From positions 1-64,000 of the forward strand of contig NZ_HG005141.1 in NCBI RefSeq assembly GCF_000455265.1: a stretch of DNA of 64,000 bases, written 5' to 3'. Below are positions 447 to 5,958 of the stretch, in pieces. Made by a program: the position numbers and the translations under genes. The DNA comes from Paenibacillus antibioticophila. GTDB lineage: Bacteria; Bacillota; Bacilli; Paenibacillales; Paenibacillaceae. The notes below the pieces were generated by a model. The model was not told where the DNA came from. It worked only from the letters and a program-made list of their open reading frames with translations, and made no database searches. Positions within the stretch are counted from its first letter, which is position 1. Each line of letters begins with the position of its first letter.

Positions 447-1958
447 TTATTCTTCGTCTGTTGAGTCTACGGACTCGACTTCAACGCTTATACCGCCTCC
501 GGAGCTACTGCTTGACTCCGTGTCGTTGGTACCGGTATCTTCTTTTCCTTTATTGGCCTCCTGATCTTTAATGGCCTTATCCAAGATAACCTGTCCTTCC
601 TGCTCCATCGCCTGCAAGGCTTCCTCAACCGACTTCTTCTTCTCCTGCACCAGCTTCAATTGTTCCTCTTGAACCGCATAGAACTGCATGTAGAAGTCAT
701 TCGGTATCTTGCTCATTCGCTCATAAGATGAGCTTTGATCCAGCTTAGGCTTAAGTGCGTAGAAGGCCTCAAGACTGTGTCCATCGTACTCCTTTGAATA
801 TCCCATGCGTGACAGAAGTCCACTATTGAGCGTTCTGGACTTGACCTTCGCATATTCTTCTCCATTGATGAACTTAATGAAGTCCCAGGCTGCATCCGCA
901 TTCGGCGAATCGGCCCGGATTGCAAAAATATCGCTAAAGAAGATATTACGGGATATCTCAGGGTCTGCAGGATCTACCGGACCAGCCACGATACCAATCT
1001 CGAATGGTGTGTAATCCTTCATGTAGGAGCCGGACTCTTTCAAATTCTGCAAGGTATATGGATCGCCAATTGTCATGGCCATTCTGCCCATCAGGAACAA
1101 TTGACTCTTGTAATACTCCTCCATCGAACCGCCGGTAAACCCGCCATCCTCAGGGATGTACACACTGCCGGATTCCAGCGCATCAAATGCGAGCTTGTAG
1201 ACTCTTTTCCAGGCATCCGTATTCAGAGTCACCTTCATCGTATCCGGGTTCACCTGGTTAAGTCCCTCTGTAGAGGAGATCATGCTCACCAGGTTCGAGA
1301 AGTTCATGCCGTACTGCGCACCGTAGCCATATACTCTTGAATCCGCATCTCCATCAGTTGGAAATCGGCGGGCCAGATCGAGAATTTCCTGCCAGGTAAT
1401 ATTATTTTGCGGCGGATCAATACCGTATTTGTTGAACAGATCCACATTATAGAACAACGCTTGTCCATGGAAGGTCGGACTTAACCCGTATAATTTACCG
1501 GCTCCTTTTTCCTTCAACATTTCAATTAATGCAGGATAAATCGTCTCGGTGTCATACTTGTCGCGCGTAATGAATGAATCCAGCTCCATTAATCTTCCTT
1601 CAGAGACCATTTTTTCATAGCTACTGGAATCAATCATAAGCACATCCGGTTTCTGCTCTTCAATAAAATCTAACGTCGCCTGATACTGGTCTTCGATAAC
1701 TGCGCCACCGCTATACATACTATTTGTGCTGACTACTTCAATATCTACATCATCATATCTCATCGAGAACAAATCACCATATTGTTGAAAGAAATACCCT
1801 TCGTCCCAAAACATAACCTTCATGCTCCGTCGTACATCCGACTGTTTCGCAGGGGCTGGACCGCACCCGGCCAGCAGCACTAATACGGCGCAAATTGCCG
1901 CAATGGTCAGCTTCCGCATGCGGCTTCTATTCTTTCGTTCAGAAAACATAGTTAACAT
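447..1958 (-). CDS. Orphan extracellular solute-binding lipoprotein (family 1)
   Basis: This is a substrate-binding lipoprotein of the MalE-like family 1, anchored outside the membrane. A basic N-terminus is followed by a hydrophobic segment ending in the lipobox LLAGC near residue 32. The body has features typical of sugar-binding SBPs (YGLSPTFHGQALFYNVDLF, MTWQEIL-type and GRMAMTIGDPY segments). The last ~45 residues are a low-complexity acidic/Ser/Gly tail, which is unusual for this family. AGGAGG lies 4 nt before the ATG used here. It is clearly paralogous to the protein at 2649-4148 across its whole length. No permease or ATPase gene is nearby, so the substrate is unknown and a partner ABC transporter must be encoded elsewhere, or the protein is a sensor. 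Confidence 0.85.
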   Translation of the reverse strand: MLTMFSERKNRSRMRKLTIAAICAVLVLLAGCGPAPAKQSDVRRSMKVMFWDEGYFFQQYGDLFSMRYDDVDIEVVSTNSMYSGGAVIEDQYQATLDFIEEQKPDVLMIDSSSYEKMVSEGRLMELDSFITRDKYDTETIYPALIEMLKEKGAGKLYGLSPTFHGQALFYNVDLFNKYGIDPPQNNITWQEILDLARRFPTDGDADSRVYGYGAQYGMNFSNLVSMISSTEGLNQVNPDTMKVTLNTDAWKRVYKLAFDALESGSVYIPEDGGFTGGSMEEYYKSQLFLMGRMAMTIGDPYTLQNLKESGSYMKDYTPFEIGIVAGPVDPADPEISRNIFFSDIFAIRADSPNADAAWDFIKFINGEEYAKVKSRTLNSGLLSRMGYSKEYDGHSLEAFYALKPKLDQSSSYERMSKIPNDFYMQFYAVQEEQLKLVQEKKKSVEEALQAMEQEGQVILDKAIKDQEANKGKEDTGTNDTESSSSSGGGISVEVESVDSTDEE

Positions 1959-2160: not shown

Positions 2161-2322
2161 TTAGTTAAGTAGCCTGCCTTCCATACCCCCGATTTTTAGA
2201 TACTTCTTGATCAGATCGATAACTCGTTTGTCCTCAATTTGTTTGCGCAAAAGATCCAGAAGCAGCTCATGATTCAACGTATCGAAGTATTTCGACAGGT
2301 CGATTTCTAACACGTAACTTAT
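2161..2322 (-). pseudogene. Group II intron reverse transcriptase fragment
   Basis: The frame contains YVLEIDLSKYFDTLNHELL followed by a helical segment rich in K and L. This matches the reverse transcriptase palm region of LtrA-type group II intron proteins, in which an IDL-KFFD motif holds a catalytic Asp. The homology covers only about 50 residues. It ends at a stop just before the region where the QGGPLSP motif is expected, and nothing upstream in the same frame (to 2502) resembles an RT. It is a decayed piece of a mobile element lying between the two paralogous lipoprotein genes. Confidence 0.75.
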
Positions 2323-2514
2323 CCCTCCGCTCTCATGCATACCCTTCGCGTTCCATGCTATCCCTTTGCCGGCAACAAGCTTTACTCTGTGTTTCGGATT
2401 TTTTTCCACAGCACATCTGTGGACCTCCCGGGGTAAGAACGATAACTTTCTCCTTATCCATCTGTCACATCTACATGATGAGATTCGGGCAGTATGGGAC
2501 ATACCGGACGCACC

Positions 2515-2648: not shown

Positions 2649-4148
2649 CTACTCTACCGTCACACTAACCTCATCTGCTGTATTATCCGCTGTGCCGGAT
2701 TCAGCGCCGCTCTCGCCAGATGTGGCTGCATCGTCAGCTTCGCCGGCTGTGCTGCCGTCATCAGAGCCTTTTTCCGCCGCCTCGTCCTTAATTGCCTTAT
2801 TCAGTAAAGCCTGCGACTCGTCCTCAATGGTCTGGAGGGCTTCTTCAATAGACTTCTTCTTGTCTTGAGCCAGTTGGATCTCTCGGGTCAGAATGCCGTA
2901 GTATTCCATATGAAATGCTTCCGGAATTTTGGTGTAATCCTCACTACTATCACTATTGAGACTTGGCTTCAGCTTATAAAATACATCCAGGTTTAACCCA
3001 TTGTATTCCTTGCTGACATTCATTCGAGATAACAGACCGCCGTTCATCGTTCTGGACTTGACCTTGGCAAATTTCTCGCTATTAACGAATTTGATAAATT
3101 CCCAAGCCGCATCCGCGTTAGGAGAGTTGGCCCGAATGCCAAAGATATCGTTGAAGAAAATATTCCGGGATGTCTCCGGGTCCGCCGGATCCACAGGTCC
3201 TGCTACAGCCCCAAGTTGGAACGGCTTATAATCATTAACCCGATCCTGTACGTCCTTGAGGTTTTGAAGCATATACGGGCCTTCTACTGTCATGGCCATG
3301 CGCCCCATCAAGAACAGTTGACTCTTATAATAATCCTCCATTGATCCCCCCTGGAACGCAGTATCACCTGGGTTATAGATGGCCTGAGAGTCTATCGCAT
3401 CCATAGCCAGCTTATAGGCTTGCTTCCATGAATCCGTGTTCAGTGTAACTTGCATGGTGTCTGTATTGATAAACTTCAAGCCTTGTGTAGCGGCTATGTT
3501 GGAAGCCAGTTGCTCCATCGTCATACCGTAATTCGTACCGAAGCCATATACCCGAGTGTCCGTGTCTCCATCGGTAGGAAAACGCCGAGCCGTGTCAAGA
3601 ATCTCCTGCCAGGTCATCCCGTCATGCGGCACTTCGATGCCATATTTGGTGAACAAATCAGCATTGTAGAAAATGACATTGCCATAAAAGGTTGGAGCTA
3701 AGCCATACAGCTTGCCGCCCCCCTTGTCCTTGAGGATTTCCATAAGAGCAGGATAAATGGACTGGGTATCATACTTATCCCGTTCGATCAGCGTATCCAT
3801 CTCTGCCAGCTTGCCTTCGGAAGCCATCCTCTCATAGGTCTCCGTATTTAACATAACGACATCAGGCTGTTCTTTCTCTATGAATTCCTCCAAAGCTTTA
3901 TTGTAGTCCACTAAGCCATCCGGATTGTCGCGATAGATGCGGTTTGTGCTGACAACCTCAATCTCGATGTTCGGCTTCTCCATCGCAAATAAATCGCCAT
4001 ATTGCTGGAAGAAGTACCCCTCATCCGAAAACATAACCTTTAAGCTGGATGTCTGCTCTGCTTCTGGTGCAGGACGGCTGGTACAGCCCGCAAGCACAGC
4101 AGATGCCAACACAACCATGAGCCCTTTATTCAACCATGATCCCTTCAT
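2649..4148 (-). CDS. Orphan extracellular solute-binding lipoprotein (paralog)
   Basis: This is a second MalE-like family 1 solute-binding lipoprotein, colinear with the one at 447-1958. They share, for example, DEGYFFQQYGDLF, RFPTDGD, YKSQLFLMGRMAMT and GPVDPADPE. A signal peptide ends in the lipobox VLAGC. The C-terminal ~50 residues form an acidic Ala/Ser/Gly/Asp tail ending VSVTVE, echoing the ISVEVE near the end of paralog 1. The start is ATG at 4148, 5 nt after GGAGG; the upstream TTG at 4160 overlaps that ribosome binding site and was rejected. The gene follows the radical SAM/peptide unit on the same strand, with a terminator between. No transport partner is encoded nearby. Confidence 0.85.
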   Translation of the reverse strand: MKGSWLNKGLMVVLASAVLAGCTSRPAPEAEQTSSLKVMFSDEGYFFQQYGDLFAMEKPNIEIEVVSTNRIYRDNPDGLVDYNKALEEFIEKEQPDVVMLNTETYERMASEGKLAEMDTLIERDKYDTQSIYPALMEILKDKGGGKLYGLAPTFYGNVIFYNADLFTKYGIEVPHDGMTWQEILDTARRFPTDGDTDTRVYGFGTNYGMTMEQLASNIAATQGLKFINTDTMQVTLNTDSWKQAYKLAMDAIDSQAIYNPGDTAFQGGSMEDYYKSQLFLMGRMAMTVEGPYMLQNLKDVQDRVNDYKPFQLGAVAGPVDPADPETSRNIFFNDIFGIRANSPNADAAWEFIKFVNSEKFAKVKSRTMNGGLLSRMNVSKEYNGLNLDVFYKLKPSLNSDSSEDYTKIPEAFHMEYYGILTREIQLAQDKKKSIEEALQTIEDESQALLNKAIKDEAAEKGSDDGSTAGEADDAATSGESGAESGTADNTADEVSVTVE

Positions 4149-4230
4149 CTTTACCTCCAAAATATAGATATTTTAGTAGAGTTCTCTATGGATAGAACGA
4201 ATCAAAGAAGTAATAGTTTCTTTATCCAGA

Positions 4231-4277
4231 AAAAATCCGACCCAAAACAGCTCTTAAGAACTGTACAGATCGGATTA
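4231..4277 (-). terminator. Terminator of the radical SAM/peptide unit
   Basis: On the minus strand AATCCGA pairs with TCGGATT, and an inner ACAG..TCTTAAGA..CTGT palindrome extends the stem. A TTTTTTC run follows. It lies about 25 bp after the small peptide gene, so maturase and peptide form a unit separate from the downstream lipoprotein gene. Confidence 0.8.
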
Positions 4278-4301: not shown

Positions 4302-4385
4302 TTAGCTCAAATTGCCTGGGACTGACTTAGTCAGACGTCCGGTTTTGACAAGAGCCGCTTGGGCTGCGGAACGAATTACTTTCAT
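4302..4385 (-). CDS. 27-residue candidate RiPP precursor peptide
   Basis: This short frame begins MKVIRSAAQAALVK and ends in a Thr/Gly/Arg/Lys/Ser-rich core finishing PGNLS. It is preceded by AAGGAGGTG, a near-perfect Shine-Dalgarno 6 nt before the ATG, stronger than that of most genes around it. It starts 55 bp after the stop of the radical SAM/SPASM maturase on the same strand and is followed by an intrinsic terminator. That arrangement is characteristic of a peptide natural product precursor. The peptide has no Cys, Trp, Tyr, Phe or His. Cys-based sactionine and lanthionine bridges, and Trp or Tyr crosslinks of the streptide or darobactin type, are therefore excluded. Epimerisation or an aliphatic C-C link remains possible. 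The product and any activity are unknown. Confidence 0.65.
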   Translation of the reverse strand: MKVIRSAAQAALVKTGRLTKSVPGNLS

Positions 4386-4440
4386 GCTGATCACCTCCTT
4401 ATCTAGATCAAGCGTGTGCCTGGATTCATGTGGCTGCCCA

Positions 4441-5814
4441 TCAGCCTAAAGTTCGGGCAAATTCCTCTTCCTGCTGCGATTGCAGCCAGATGGTCCGGAG
4501 TGTTTTTTTGATCTGCCGTTTCTCATAAGAGCATGGCCGCTGACCGGTACGCATTCGATATAACGGACAATGGTTGCCCTGACAGGCAGGGCGGAAAAAG
4601 CACGCCTGGCACTTCTCATCCGTCTCCTCACCCGATGTTGTCCAGAGGGCAAGCTTGTCATAATCGATCTCAAGCGTTCCATCCTGATGGACATGCCCAA
4701 GTCGATTGTCGTCCTGCTCCATGGCCACAGAGCATTTGTACAATACTCCGTCCGAGCCGATCACCAATGAATTGGGCTTGGCCGCATAGCATACAGCTCC
4801 TGTGGGCAGCAAAGTATCAGAGATAAAGCTGCTAACCGTAAGCCCCTCTGCAATCGCACGTTCATTGAATTCCCAAATCTTGATGTCCTTAGTTCGTTCG
4901 TCGCATACAGGCAAATTCAGGTCATTCTCTCCCCCCATACAGCCGACTGGACGGAAATACACCTTGAAACGGGGATCATCTCCAAACCATTCCTTAAGCA
5001 TGGGAATGAAGCGTTCTACAGAATCCAGATTACTATTGTCAAAGTTAACGCGAATATTAATTTCAAACGGACGATCTACTTCTTTAAGTGTTAATAGGTT
5101 CTGGAGGATCGTATCAAATGTCCCCCCGCCCCCATGAAGCCCGCGACGGCTGTCGTGCACCTGCGCTTCGCCATCCAGGGTGACCATAAACCGTTCCACG
5201 TGCAAATCCAGCATCTGCTCGAAGCGTTCTCTGGTTAAATAATAGCCGTTCGTGGACATTTCTGCCCCATATACGGCTCCATTGGCCTCACAGGAGTCCA
5301 TAAAGGAACGCGATAGGCGTTCAATCACATGGGGAGCCAACAGAGGTTCTCCGCCATGCCAGCTAATGGTCAAACGATTCAGGGTTCTTGCCCGTTCTTT
5401 CATATAAGCCTCAAGACCTTCGATAACCTCGGGGCGCATGGTAGCTCGCGGAAAGCTCTCATAGCAGTAAGTGCAGCGAAAATTGCACGCCTCCGTCACA
5501 AGCAGGACCAAATGCATCGTATCCTGTGCATGCATCGATTGGTGAAGGAATGTAGCGCGGCGTTCTTCGTCCACGGTTGTCTCAACCAGAAACCCGTGCT
5601 CTATCAAACTCGCGTACAGTGGGGGAGCCGGGTCCGGTGCCGGCATTCCAGGCCGCAGCCATTCCAGAACCTGAGTCCGTTCTTCAGGAGAAAAGGAAGC
5701 GATCGCTCCAGTGTAGCTGTTGTACAGCACTACTCCTCCTGCATCTTCTCCGCTCTGCGCATTAAAACGCGACGGTTTCCACTGTATTGCGTGCCGATTC
5801 ATTATGCATTCCAT
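4441..5814 (-). CDS. Radical SAM/SPASM peptide maturase
   Basis: The ~100-residue N-terminus (VVLYNSYTGAIASFSPEE) looks like the short RRE/PqqD-like region found in peptide-modifying radical SAM enzymes. The radical SAM core has CNFRCTYC (CxxxCxxC, the 4Fe-4S/SAM site) and WHGGEPLL. The C-terminus (about residues 330-430) carries many Cys (CYAAK, YKCSVA, CQACFFRPACQGNHC), a SPASM domain binding auxiliary Fe-S clusters. Such proteins modify ribosomal peptides or act as anaerobic sulfatase maturases; no sulfatase is nearby, while a 27-residue peptide gene follows immediately. The start is uncertain: ATG 5814 and ATG 5802 (MNRHAIQ) both have weak ribosome binding sites. Family assignment is firm; the substrate is inferred from position. 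Confidence 0.85.
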   Translation of the reverse strand: MECIMNRHAIQWKPSRFNAQSGEDAGGVVLYNSYTGAIASFSPEERTQVLEWLRPGMPAPDPAPPLYASLIEHGFLVETTVDEERRATFLHQSMHAQDTMHLVLLVTEACNFRCTYCYESFPRATMRPEVIEGLEAYMKERARTLNRLTISWHGGEPLLAPHVIERLSRSFMDSCEANGAVYGAEMSTNGYYLTRERFEQMLDLHVERFMVTLDGEAQVHDSRRGLHGGGGTFDTILQNLLTLKEVDRPFEINIRVNFDNSNLDSVERFIPMLKEWFGDDPRFKVYFRPVGCMGGENDLNLPVCDERTKDIKIWEFNERAIAEGLTVSSFISDTLLPTGAVCYAAKPNSLVIGSDGVLYKCSVAMEQDDNRLGHVHQDGTLEIDYDKLALWTTSGEETDEKCQACFFRPACQGNHCPLYRMRTGQRPCSYEKRQIKKTLRTIWLQSQQEEEFARTLG

Positions 5815-5958
5815 CTTTCATATCAGTGTGGTTCATGATTGCCGGAAAGACTGCGCCTTCCCCAAACCCTTACCTATCATGAAAGGAACCCAGCGGAAAT
5901 TTCAATGACTTGTATCACTTTTAAGTAAGGGCGTAATCATTGCAATACTGGACCATAG

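Follow-up and report, generated by a model that had tools for sequence, protein, structure and literature searches.

Here we describe a two-gene unit on the minus strand of a 64,000-nucleotide stretch of DNA from Paenibacillus antibioticophila (contig NZ_HG005141.1, positions 1 to 64,000; the window, below, means this whole stretch), in which a radical S-adenosylmethionine (SAM) enzyme with a SPASM region is followed by a short frame for a 27-residue peptide. We read the two genes as the maturase and the precursor of a ribosomally synthesized and post-translationally modified peptide (RiPP), and the N-terminus of the enzyme as a domain of the RiPP recognition element (RRE) type. From upstream to downstream, the features of the unit are:

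5904..5919, minus strand: putative Fnr/CRP-type palindrome AGTGATACAAGTCATT upstream of the maturase, with 7/10 consensus bases and a conserved place in relatives
5876..5881, minus strand: -10-like hexamer CATGAT, near class II spacing to the palindrome
4441..5814, minus strand: radical SAM/SPASM maturase with an N-terminal RRE-type domain, longest frame, 457 residues
5521..5802, minus strand: predicted RRE-type domain of the maturase, from an AlphaFold model and VIA-align rows
4392..4400, minus strand: Shine-Dalgarno AAGGAGGTG of the peptide, read from the sequence and similar in relatives
4302..4385, minus strand: precursor peptide frame MKVIRSAAQAALVKTGRLTKSVPGNLS, 27 residues, with leader MKVIRSA and core KSVPGNL(S)
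4229..4276, minus strand: hairpin of the intrinsic-terminator type with a T tail, 3' of the peptide, from sequence and folding

This layout, running from the maturase stop (4441) across a gap of 55 bp to a short gene with its Shine-Dalgarno and then a terminator, is the one that an initial annotation had drawn from the letters, and every part of it was found again. The maturase may start at the ATG at 5802 (MNRH...); in several relatives the longest frame opens there. The hairpin has its stem from 4276 to 4234, followed by TTTTC, with a run of six T of which two lie inside the stem. A 96-nucleotide stretch around it folds at -25.7 kcal/mol against a shuffle mean of -15.85 (z -3.54; 2 of 200 shuffles were equally good); a terminator pattern scan left this hairpin unlisted and found one other terminator-like site, where shuffles average 2.7. 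The 5.58-Mb assembly holds no close second copy of the maturase, the next match being 27% identical, and the nearest named relative is that of Paenibacillus brevis MSJ-6 at 97% identity. A plasmid or phage origin was considered and rejected, only distant matches having been found (among 10 plasmid records the best reaches 42%, among 3 phage records 29%). Two Deinococcus plasmid loci have different neighbours, and a motif scan of them found no such peptide.

Relatives of the maturase were collected from a set of 59 genomes (19 matched at 1e-30) together with 13 named loci, from an order-level set of 392 genomes (41 matched at 1e-70), from a class-level set of 398 genomes (19 matched at 1e-80) and from a phylum-level set of 398 genomes with 2 matches, of which one is the genome that the window comes from and the other a sister-type enzyme. 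Enzymes of about 45% identity and more were taken as the group, which spans 45 genomes with the window's own included: 37 from the order set, 6 from the class set and 2 from the 59-genome set. Left out of the order set were G057 and G291, with partial matches of 37-38% identity, and G082 and G099, with a sister-type enzyme only; the 19 class-level matches comprise the 6 counted, 6 that repeat the order set, 6 of the sister type and 1 distant. A homologous frame of 27-30 residues lies downstream on the same strand in 45/45 group genomes, and the peptide is carried by 13/13 named records too, these being for the most part evidently the same assemblies and not additional ones. In the reverse direction, a profile of 16 peptides run against 296 order genomes gave 27 matches, of which 26 stand beside the maturase; the 27th looks spurious (E 0.0036, inside a 1724-residue frame). 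Even in G480, where the enzyme frame is split in two (locus L147), the peptide is still present. Genome G011 has a second, split maturase copy (L047, 9328-10679, minus strand) with an intact peptide behind it and several broken frames of solute-binding proteins (SBPs). Distant enzymes (31-37% identity) in G026, G033 and G057, and an extra one in G022, come without the peptide.

Two checks had been set beforehand, one for homologous maturases that lack the frame and one for conservation of the frame as protein. The first found none in the group, the frame being missing from distant homologues and sister enzymes; the second found leader and core constant while synonymous codons vary. Because of this linkage and the RRE-type domain, we regard it as near certain from the sequences that enzyme and peptide are an enzyme/substrate pair. 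The RiPP unit proposed by the initial annotation, a maturase with a Cys-free precursor, is thus strongly supported by two-way linkage, the RRE-type fold and protein conservation.

The peptide itself matches no PDB sequence and no family in Pfam or NCBIfam, even at E up to 10 in NCBIfam. Its statistics cover 42 loci including the window (46 were taken, and 4, whose peptides have no Cys, were dropped by a length filter), at lengths of 27 residues (24 loci), 28 (15), 29 (1) and 30 (2). We read it as a leader, which in the group peptides has the constant form MK-phi-I-R-x-A, and a core K-x-x-P-G-x-L, found in 42/42 loci as KSVPGNL (34), KSVPGSL (3), KNNPGGL (2) and KAVPGNL, KSVPGHL or KAVPGSL (1 each). 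Across an alignment of 16 peptides M1, K20, P23, G24 and L26 are invariant, I4, R5, A7 and V22 are nearly so, and the final residue can be S, K, R, A or H or be absent. Among 21 distinct genes compared pairwise, 3211 of 5291 differences (61%) fall at third codon positions, and over the 42 loci the core draws on every synonymous codon of Pro (4), Gly (4) and Leu (6). A chance frame is ruled out by the conservation of the frame in the 45 genomes and by the linkage of the peptide profile.

The composition of the core limits the chemistry. The absence of Cys, aromatic residues and His from the whole peptide, as first described, is true of the window's own peptide and does not extend to the group, in which Cys occurs in 4, Trp in 8, His in 9 and Phe or Tyr in 0 of 42; none of the 42 has any of Cys, Phe, Trp and Tyr within its 12 C-terminal residues. 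The accompanying picture of a Thr/Gly/Arg/Lys/Ser-rich C-terminal half does not describe the conserved core, Thr15 and Arg17 being variable and Lys20, Pro23, Gly24 and Leu26 constant. The Cys donor in the core that marks sactipeptides and ranthipeptides is found in 0/42 peptides, as is the core Trp, Tyr or Phe of streptide, cyclophanes and darobactin, and the Thr-Gln motif of TQQ peptides and rotapeptides lies inside K-x-x-P-G-x-L in 0/42, with L140 alone having TQ just before it. A core without Cys, Phe, Trp and Tyr leaves no room for an internal thioether or aromatic cross-link. Modification by way of Cys or aromatic residues, given at the outset as what the known classes mostly use, is an incomplete list that overlooks known aliphatic cases: passages of PMC13361665 describe an ether from a Thr oxygen to a Gln alpha-carbon in the TQQ family, and passages of PMC9062424 a poly-cyclopropylglycine peptide.

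In Pfam, NCBIfam and PDB sequence searches the maturase has only superfamily-level matches. Pfam returns Radical_SAM at 3.9e-16 with Fer4_12 sub-threshold, and NCBIfam returns 75 models at E up to 0.1, none close to its own cut-off among the matches listed; TIGR04463 is the best of these, yet its 208 bits (223 bits for the L050 relative) lie far below the curated cut-off of 525, which sets the enzyme apart from the TIGR04463 maturases. The radical SAM cysteines C110, C114 and C117 are invariant in 29/29 group enzymes and 11/11 sister enzymes, and so are the seven SPASM-type cysteines C342, C361, C402, C405, C411, C416 and C428; together the two motifs suggest three clusters. C304, outside both motifs, is Cys in 29/29 group enzymes against 6/11 sister enzymes, and nine alignment columns, R208, M210, W314 and H415 among them, tell the clade from the 11 sister enzymes. 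The 29 group enzymes form a single clade, with support of 99/100, in a tree built from 46 enzymes. This tree, which left out L147 and has some long end branches and a distant outgroup, gives a tentative branching order for the sister lines. Four loci with anaerobic neighbours, L050, L095, L096 and L098, fall in one subclade (100/100) and are hence not independent.

Residues 5-98 of the maturase are modelled by AlphaFold with a predicted local distance difference test score (pLDDT) of 86.4. VIA-align places the N-terminus of TigE at the top for this segment (Z 7.6), followed by MccB, TbiB1, a lasso B1 protein, PbtF, ThcOx and McbB (Z 6.7-5.0) and, lower down, by LynD/TruD-type heterocyclases, SuiB (3.7) and CteB (3.1), the rows being RiPP proteins that carry RRE-type domains. 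In VIA-align a Z under 8 can reflect a common arrangement, and Foldseek on the same domain gave nothing with E under 0.001, its best match again being TigE at 0.028. An RRE-type N-terminal domain is supported, at modest scores, by the agreement among the VIA-align rows and by the succession of its strands and helices, and the RRE-like N-terminus and SPASM Cys cluster of the initial annotation both stand, the one as a modest-score fold match and the other as cysteines invariant in 29/29.

The model of the whole maturase is weak (pLDDT 62.3), and we took no distances from it. Its matches are anSMEcpe (Z 19.4), ChlB (18.9), CteB (18.6), TigE (14.8) and EpeE (13.5), families missing from such fold lists not being thereby excluded. 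With CteB (5WGG/5WHY), anSMEcpe and ChlB, the best PDB matches in fold and sequence, the enzyme shares the radical SAM and SPASM fold. A shared fold shows no shared reaction: CteB, according to passages in the literature, links a Cys of its peptide into a thioether, and the core here is Cys-free; anSME, going by its name, acts in sulfatase maturation. TigE (8VPO) is the sole row among the best 50 to span both the RRE region and the barrel (model residues 8-439), with only 14% identity in the alignment.

The closest enzymes outside the group offer a comparison within one scaffold. Sister enzymes, 36-45% identical by tblastn, were studied at 13 loci (L101, L102, L104, L105, L111, L141-L146, L148 and L150), and the 11 that were compared share the radical SAM and seven-Cys pattern with the group. 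Their peptides differ from the KSVPGNL type with its Cys-free core in being Cys-tailed, ending in CNGC, CHIC, NCNC or CHNC at 9/13 loci (L101, L102, L105, L111, L141, L143, L144, L145 and L150); no convincing peptide was found at L104, L142, L146 and L148. At L101, L102, L105, L111 and L141 the peptide lies upstream, has 37-42 residues and a different leader, and only at L143, L144 and L145 do downstream peptides of 21-23 residues have leaders resembling those of the group (MKWIVKA, MKLVKKA). The peptides of L143, L144, L145 and L150, of 21-24 residues, end in NCNC or CHNC, and L145 has three tandem copies (downstream of 9135, minus strand). The sister enzymes scanned (L101, L111, L145 and L146) also fall below the TIGR04463 cut-off. 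We infer that leader recognition may be old in part of the family and that the core and barrel residues such as R208 and M210 changed together. A flavoprotein gene and genes like those of the major facilitator superfamily (MFS) lie near L101, L104, L105, L111, L141, L146, L148 and L150; the flavoprotein of L146 matches Pfam Flavoprotein, and EpiD-like is a reading from its translation.

Upstream of the maturase, the pattern GTGA-N6-TCAY or its mirror is found in 30/47 upstream stretches, where 200 shuffled sets give a mean of 0.67 and a maximum of 4; among 21 lineage representatives it occurs in 11 (500 shuffled sets: mean 0.40, maximum 3). Of 20 sites, 12 have a hexamer that matches TATAAT at 4 or more of its 6 bases and starts 29 nucleotides past the palindrome centre, the next best offset reaching 5/20; at other sites, the window's included, it starts a base later. 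These spacings place the palindrome between about -41.5 and -42.5, a class II-like position. An independent promoter scan found TTGAAA-18-CATGAT at the same place, as one of 3 sites against a shuffle average of 2.3. Counted genome-wide with one mismatch allowed, TGTGA-N6-TCACA has 111 occurrences and a reversed control 56, and palindromes of this type precede the genes read as pflB, adhE, an Fnr-like regulator and nirB. These genes lie in an anaerobic-type island of the same genome (L199, 9400-18300), where pflA, pflB, adhE, the Fnr-like regulator, nirC, nirD and nirB were read from translations. The Fnr-like regulator has a C-terminal Cys cluster, with the tail CHCELCPNEIC, and passages of PMC1274295 indicate a CRP-like site for the Bacillus Fnr. 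We infer that an Fnr-type regulator may control the maturase/peptide pair through this putative site. Rex might bind the palindrome instead, Rex sites being of the type TTGTGAAW4TTCACAA in the abstract of PMC2883068. Enrichment of the Fnr-like protein or of PflB in carriers proved uninformative, since all 36 genus genomes have both.

The neighbours of the pair fall into two patterns. In the window, two genes lie beyond the hairpin:

2649..4160, minus strand: SBP_bac_1 lipoprotein-type protein, behind the hairpin and adjoining the unit, by a Pfam-type match
447..1958, minus strand: another SBP_bac_1 protein copy, by a Pfam-type match

Between them a reverse-transcriptase-like fragment (2161-2502, minus strand; RVT_1, E 0.0011, below the curated cut-off) is perhaps a group II intron remnant. 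One to five SBP_bac_1 genes lie near the pair in 18/18 own-genus-type loci, with no permease noticed and with an MFS-like gene in 7/18; among these loci L042 is part-masked, L047 has fragments, and L038 has four other genes in between. A 2146-residue SBP in L042 was set aside as an artefact of the masked stretch. Most SBP relatives with a solved structure go by the name of sugar-binding proteins. Outside the own-genus-type loci no SBP was seen beside the unit, and the pair mostly stands alone. The initial remark that neither a protease nor an exporter is encoded beside the unit holds for the window as read, and no constant one was seen in relatives.

In the subclade of L050, L095, L096 and L098 with its near copies, and in L138, L139 and L147, neighbours include ScdA/hemerythrin, NrdD, an activase-like radical SAM protein and YwiC, and further a protein read as a NarK-like MFS transporter, a globin, DUF2249, a TIGR04053 radical SAM protein and ThiH or ThiO, not all of them in each locus. 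Such neighbours point to anaerobic physiology without proving it. ThiH stands beside the pair in L050 (7940-12558) and L147 (9124-11060) with a ThiG-like neighbour. ThiG is a reading of ours; neither of the two scanned proteins scores high enough for a thiazole-synthase model. ThiO stands beside the pair in L138 (7056-8210), starting 21 or 36 nucleotides past the peptide stop, and at about 9000 in L096 a 68-residue frame resembles a C-terminal remnant of ThiH.

From these sequence comparisons we consider it likely that the locus is a minimal chromosomal two-gene RiPP system, probably oxygen-controlled, whose core chemistry is neither thioether nor aromatic. The RRE-type domain would bind the peptide leader, and the 5'-deoxyadenosyl radical would take a hydrogen from the backbone or from an aliphatic C-H in K20-L26, the part that carries the P-G turn. 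We place an aliphatic cross-link or ring slightly first among the outcomes, at somewhat short of an even chance; such a link might run over the P-G turn to a carbon, from Lys, a Ser/Asn side chain or a backbone amide. Epimerisation of a residue is possible, on the improbable side, with no evidence favouring it over the other outcomes, and some other product, such as a desaturated one, we hold to be equally so. An Fnr-type regulator would turn the pair on without oxygen, when the labile Fe-S enzyme can work, such induction being read from the promoter. The uniform core across families argues for a physiological role (a signal, a cofactor, or Fe-S/nitric oxide (NO) physiology) and not for a diversifying antibiotic. 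Put at its fullest, as an Fnr-controlled, non-diversifying two-gene RiPP with an undescribed aliphatic Lys-x-x-Pro-Gly-x-Leu modification that serves as an anaerobic/nitrogen-oxide peptide factor across Bacilli, the idea is a doubtful one.

Several observations weigh against this reading. The window's palindrome, with 7/10 consensus bases where shuffles of the stretch average 6.7, is alone no better than chance, and the pattern was set after viewing the scan that gave this score, on the same loci, with many close relatives among them. No palindrome lies within about 320 nucleotides in 17/47 loci (L049, L050, L092, L097-L100, L106-L110, L137-L140 and L147), in seven of which the gene stands directly behind ywiC, and L095, L096 and two of three listed L091 sites have no hexamer at the offset. 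The Fnr-like regulator reaches no Fnr or CRP model cut-off and is present in all 36 genus genomes, 22 of them without the maturase/peptide system. Rex-type sites resemble the palindrome, though the inner bases of the window site do not fit them. No anaerobic island was recognised around the own-genus loci, the neighbouring SBP genes are left unexplained, and the RRE Z scores are all under 8.

Other accounts of the pair meet the same evidence. An epipeptide-like maturase that epimerises one or more of V22, N25 and L26, with C304 as candidate hydrogen donor, would suit a core that is Cys-free and aliphatic, and C304 lies outside the cluster motifs and separates the clade (29/29) from its sisters (6/11). 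Its parallel would be EpeE. To our knowledge EpeE has no N-terminal RRE. The match to EpeE structures (Z 13.5) is below those to anSMEcpe, ChlB and CteB structures (19.4-18.3) and shows fold only; C304 could equally ligate an auxiliary cluster; and the invariant residues are P, G and L, which are not beta-branched. EpeE (YydG), as described in passages of PMC8326336, is likewise a radical SAM enzyme whose target is an aliphatic segment in a peptide from Bacillus, and EpeE and PoyD need a critical Cys; the same passages give it two clusters, leader independence and a peptide secreted with export, whereas the maturase here has an RRE-type domain and cysteines for three clusters. We hold this account to be rather improbable. 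A peptide-derived cofactor or electron carrier like pyrroloquinoline quinone (PQQ) or mycofactocin, in which the trimmed core serves anaerobic or NO-stress enzymes, appears to us unlikely. The core is not diversified across several Bacilli families, no constant exporter or immunity gene was seen in the loci read, and ScdA, NrdD, DUF2249, the TIGR04053 radical SAM protein and ThiH/ThiO are neighbours in part of the relatives, but no protease or tailoring gene is constant, own-genus loci and many others lack the anaerobic neighbours, there is no aromatic residue for a quinone-type product, and the varying final residue differs from a fixed, decarboxylated C-terminal one.

Less likely still is a RiPP of the signal or bacteriocin type that is secreted, the lipoproteins encoded nearby being its receptors or serving its import. 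SBP genes do lie near the pair in all 18 own-genus-type loci, 7 of which have an MFS-like gene, but those of the window sit behind a terminator-type hairpin, none was seen beside the unit outside that group, and their structural relatives are mostly named as sugar binders; nor was a leader-cleaving exporter noticed, and the core is not diversified. That the small frame is untranslated, and conserved as an RNA element at the 3' side of the maturase mRNA, is hardly credible. The frame is short and a hairpin stands behind it, but its ribosome-binding sites are conserved, changes are mostly third-position, and synonymous codons are free where residues are constant.

If the oxygen-controlled two-gene system holds, it would be a clean test case for radical SAM chemistry: one enzyme and a 27-residue substrate whose core is free of Cys, Phe, Trp and Tyr and offers four invariant residues for mutation, with the Cys-tail sister enzymes as a natural comparison of one scaffold changing its substrate. 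It may tie a RiPP to an oxygen-sensing promoter rather than to quorum sensing. The constancy of its sequence points to a factor in physiology, not a weapon. Among described systems, the streptococcal radical SAM RiPPs (RaS-RiPPs), with the TQQ (threoglucin/rotapeptide) and HGH families, likewise have short motif-named precursors and Cys-free ether or N-C chemistry in passages of PMC13361665. According to those passages they are mostly under Rgg/SHP control, in contrast to the putative Fnr-type site here, and KSVPGNL is not among their 16 RaS-RiPP subfamilies. No description of the unit or of its core motif was found in open PubMed Central main texts among the matches listed, and a description elsewhere is possible. 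New here are the Fnr/CRP-type palindrome upstream and the anaerobic neighbour genes in some relatives. The genus also has another radical SAM enzyme, unlike this system (L054, 8318-9688, minus strand), and behind that enzyme in L023 two 28-residue frames end in LCCV and NCCR.

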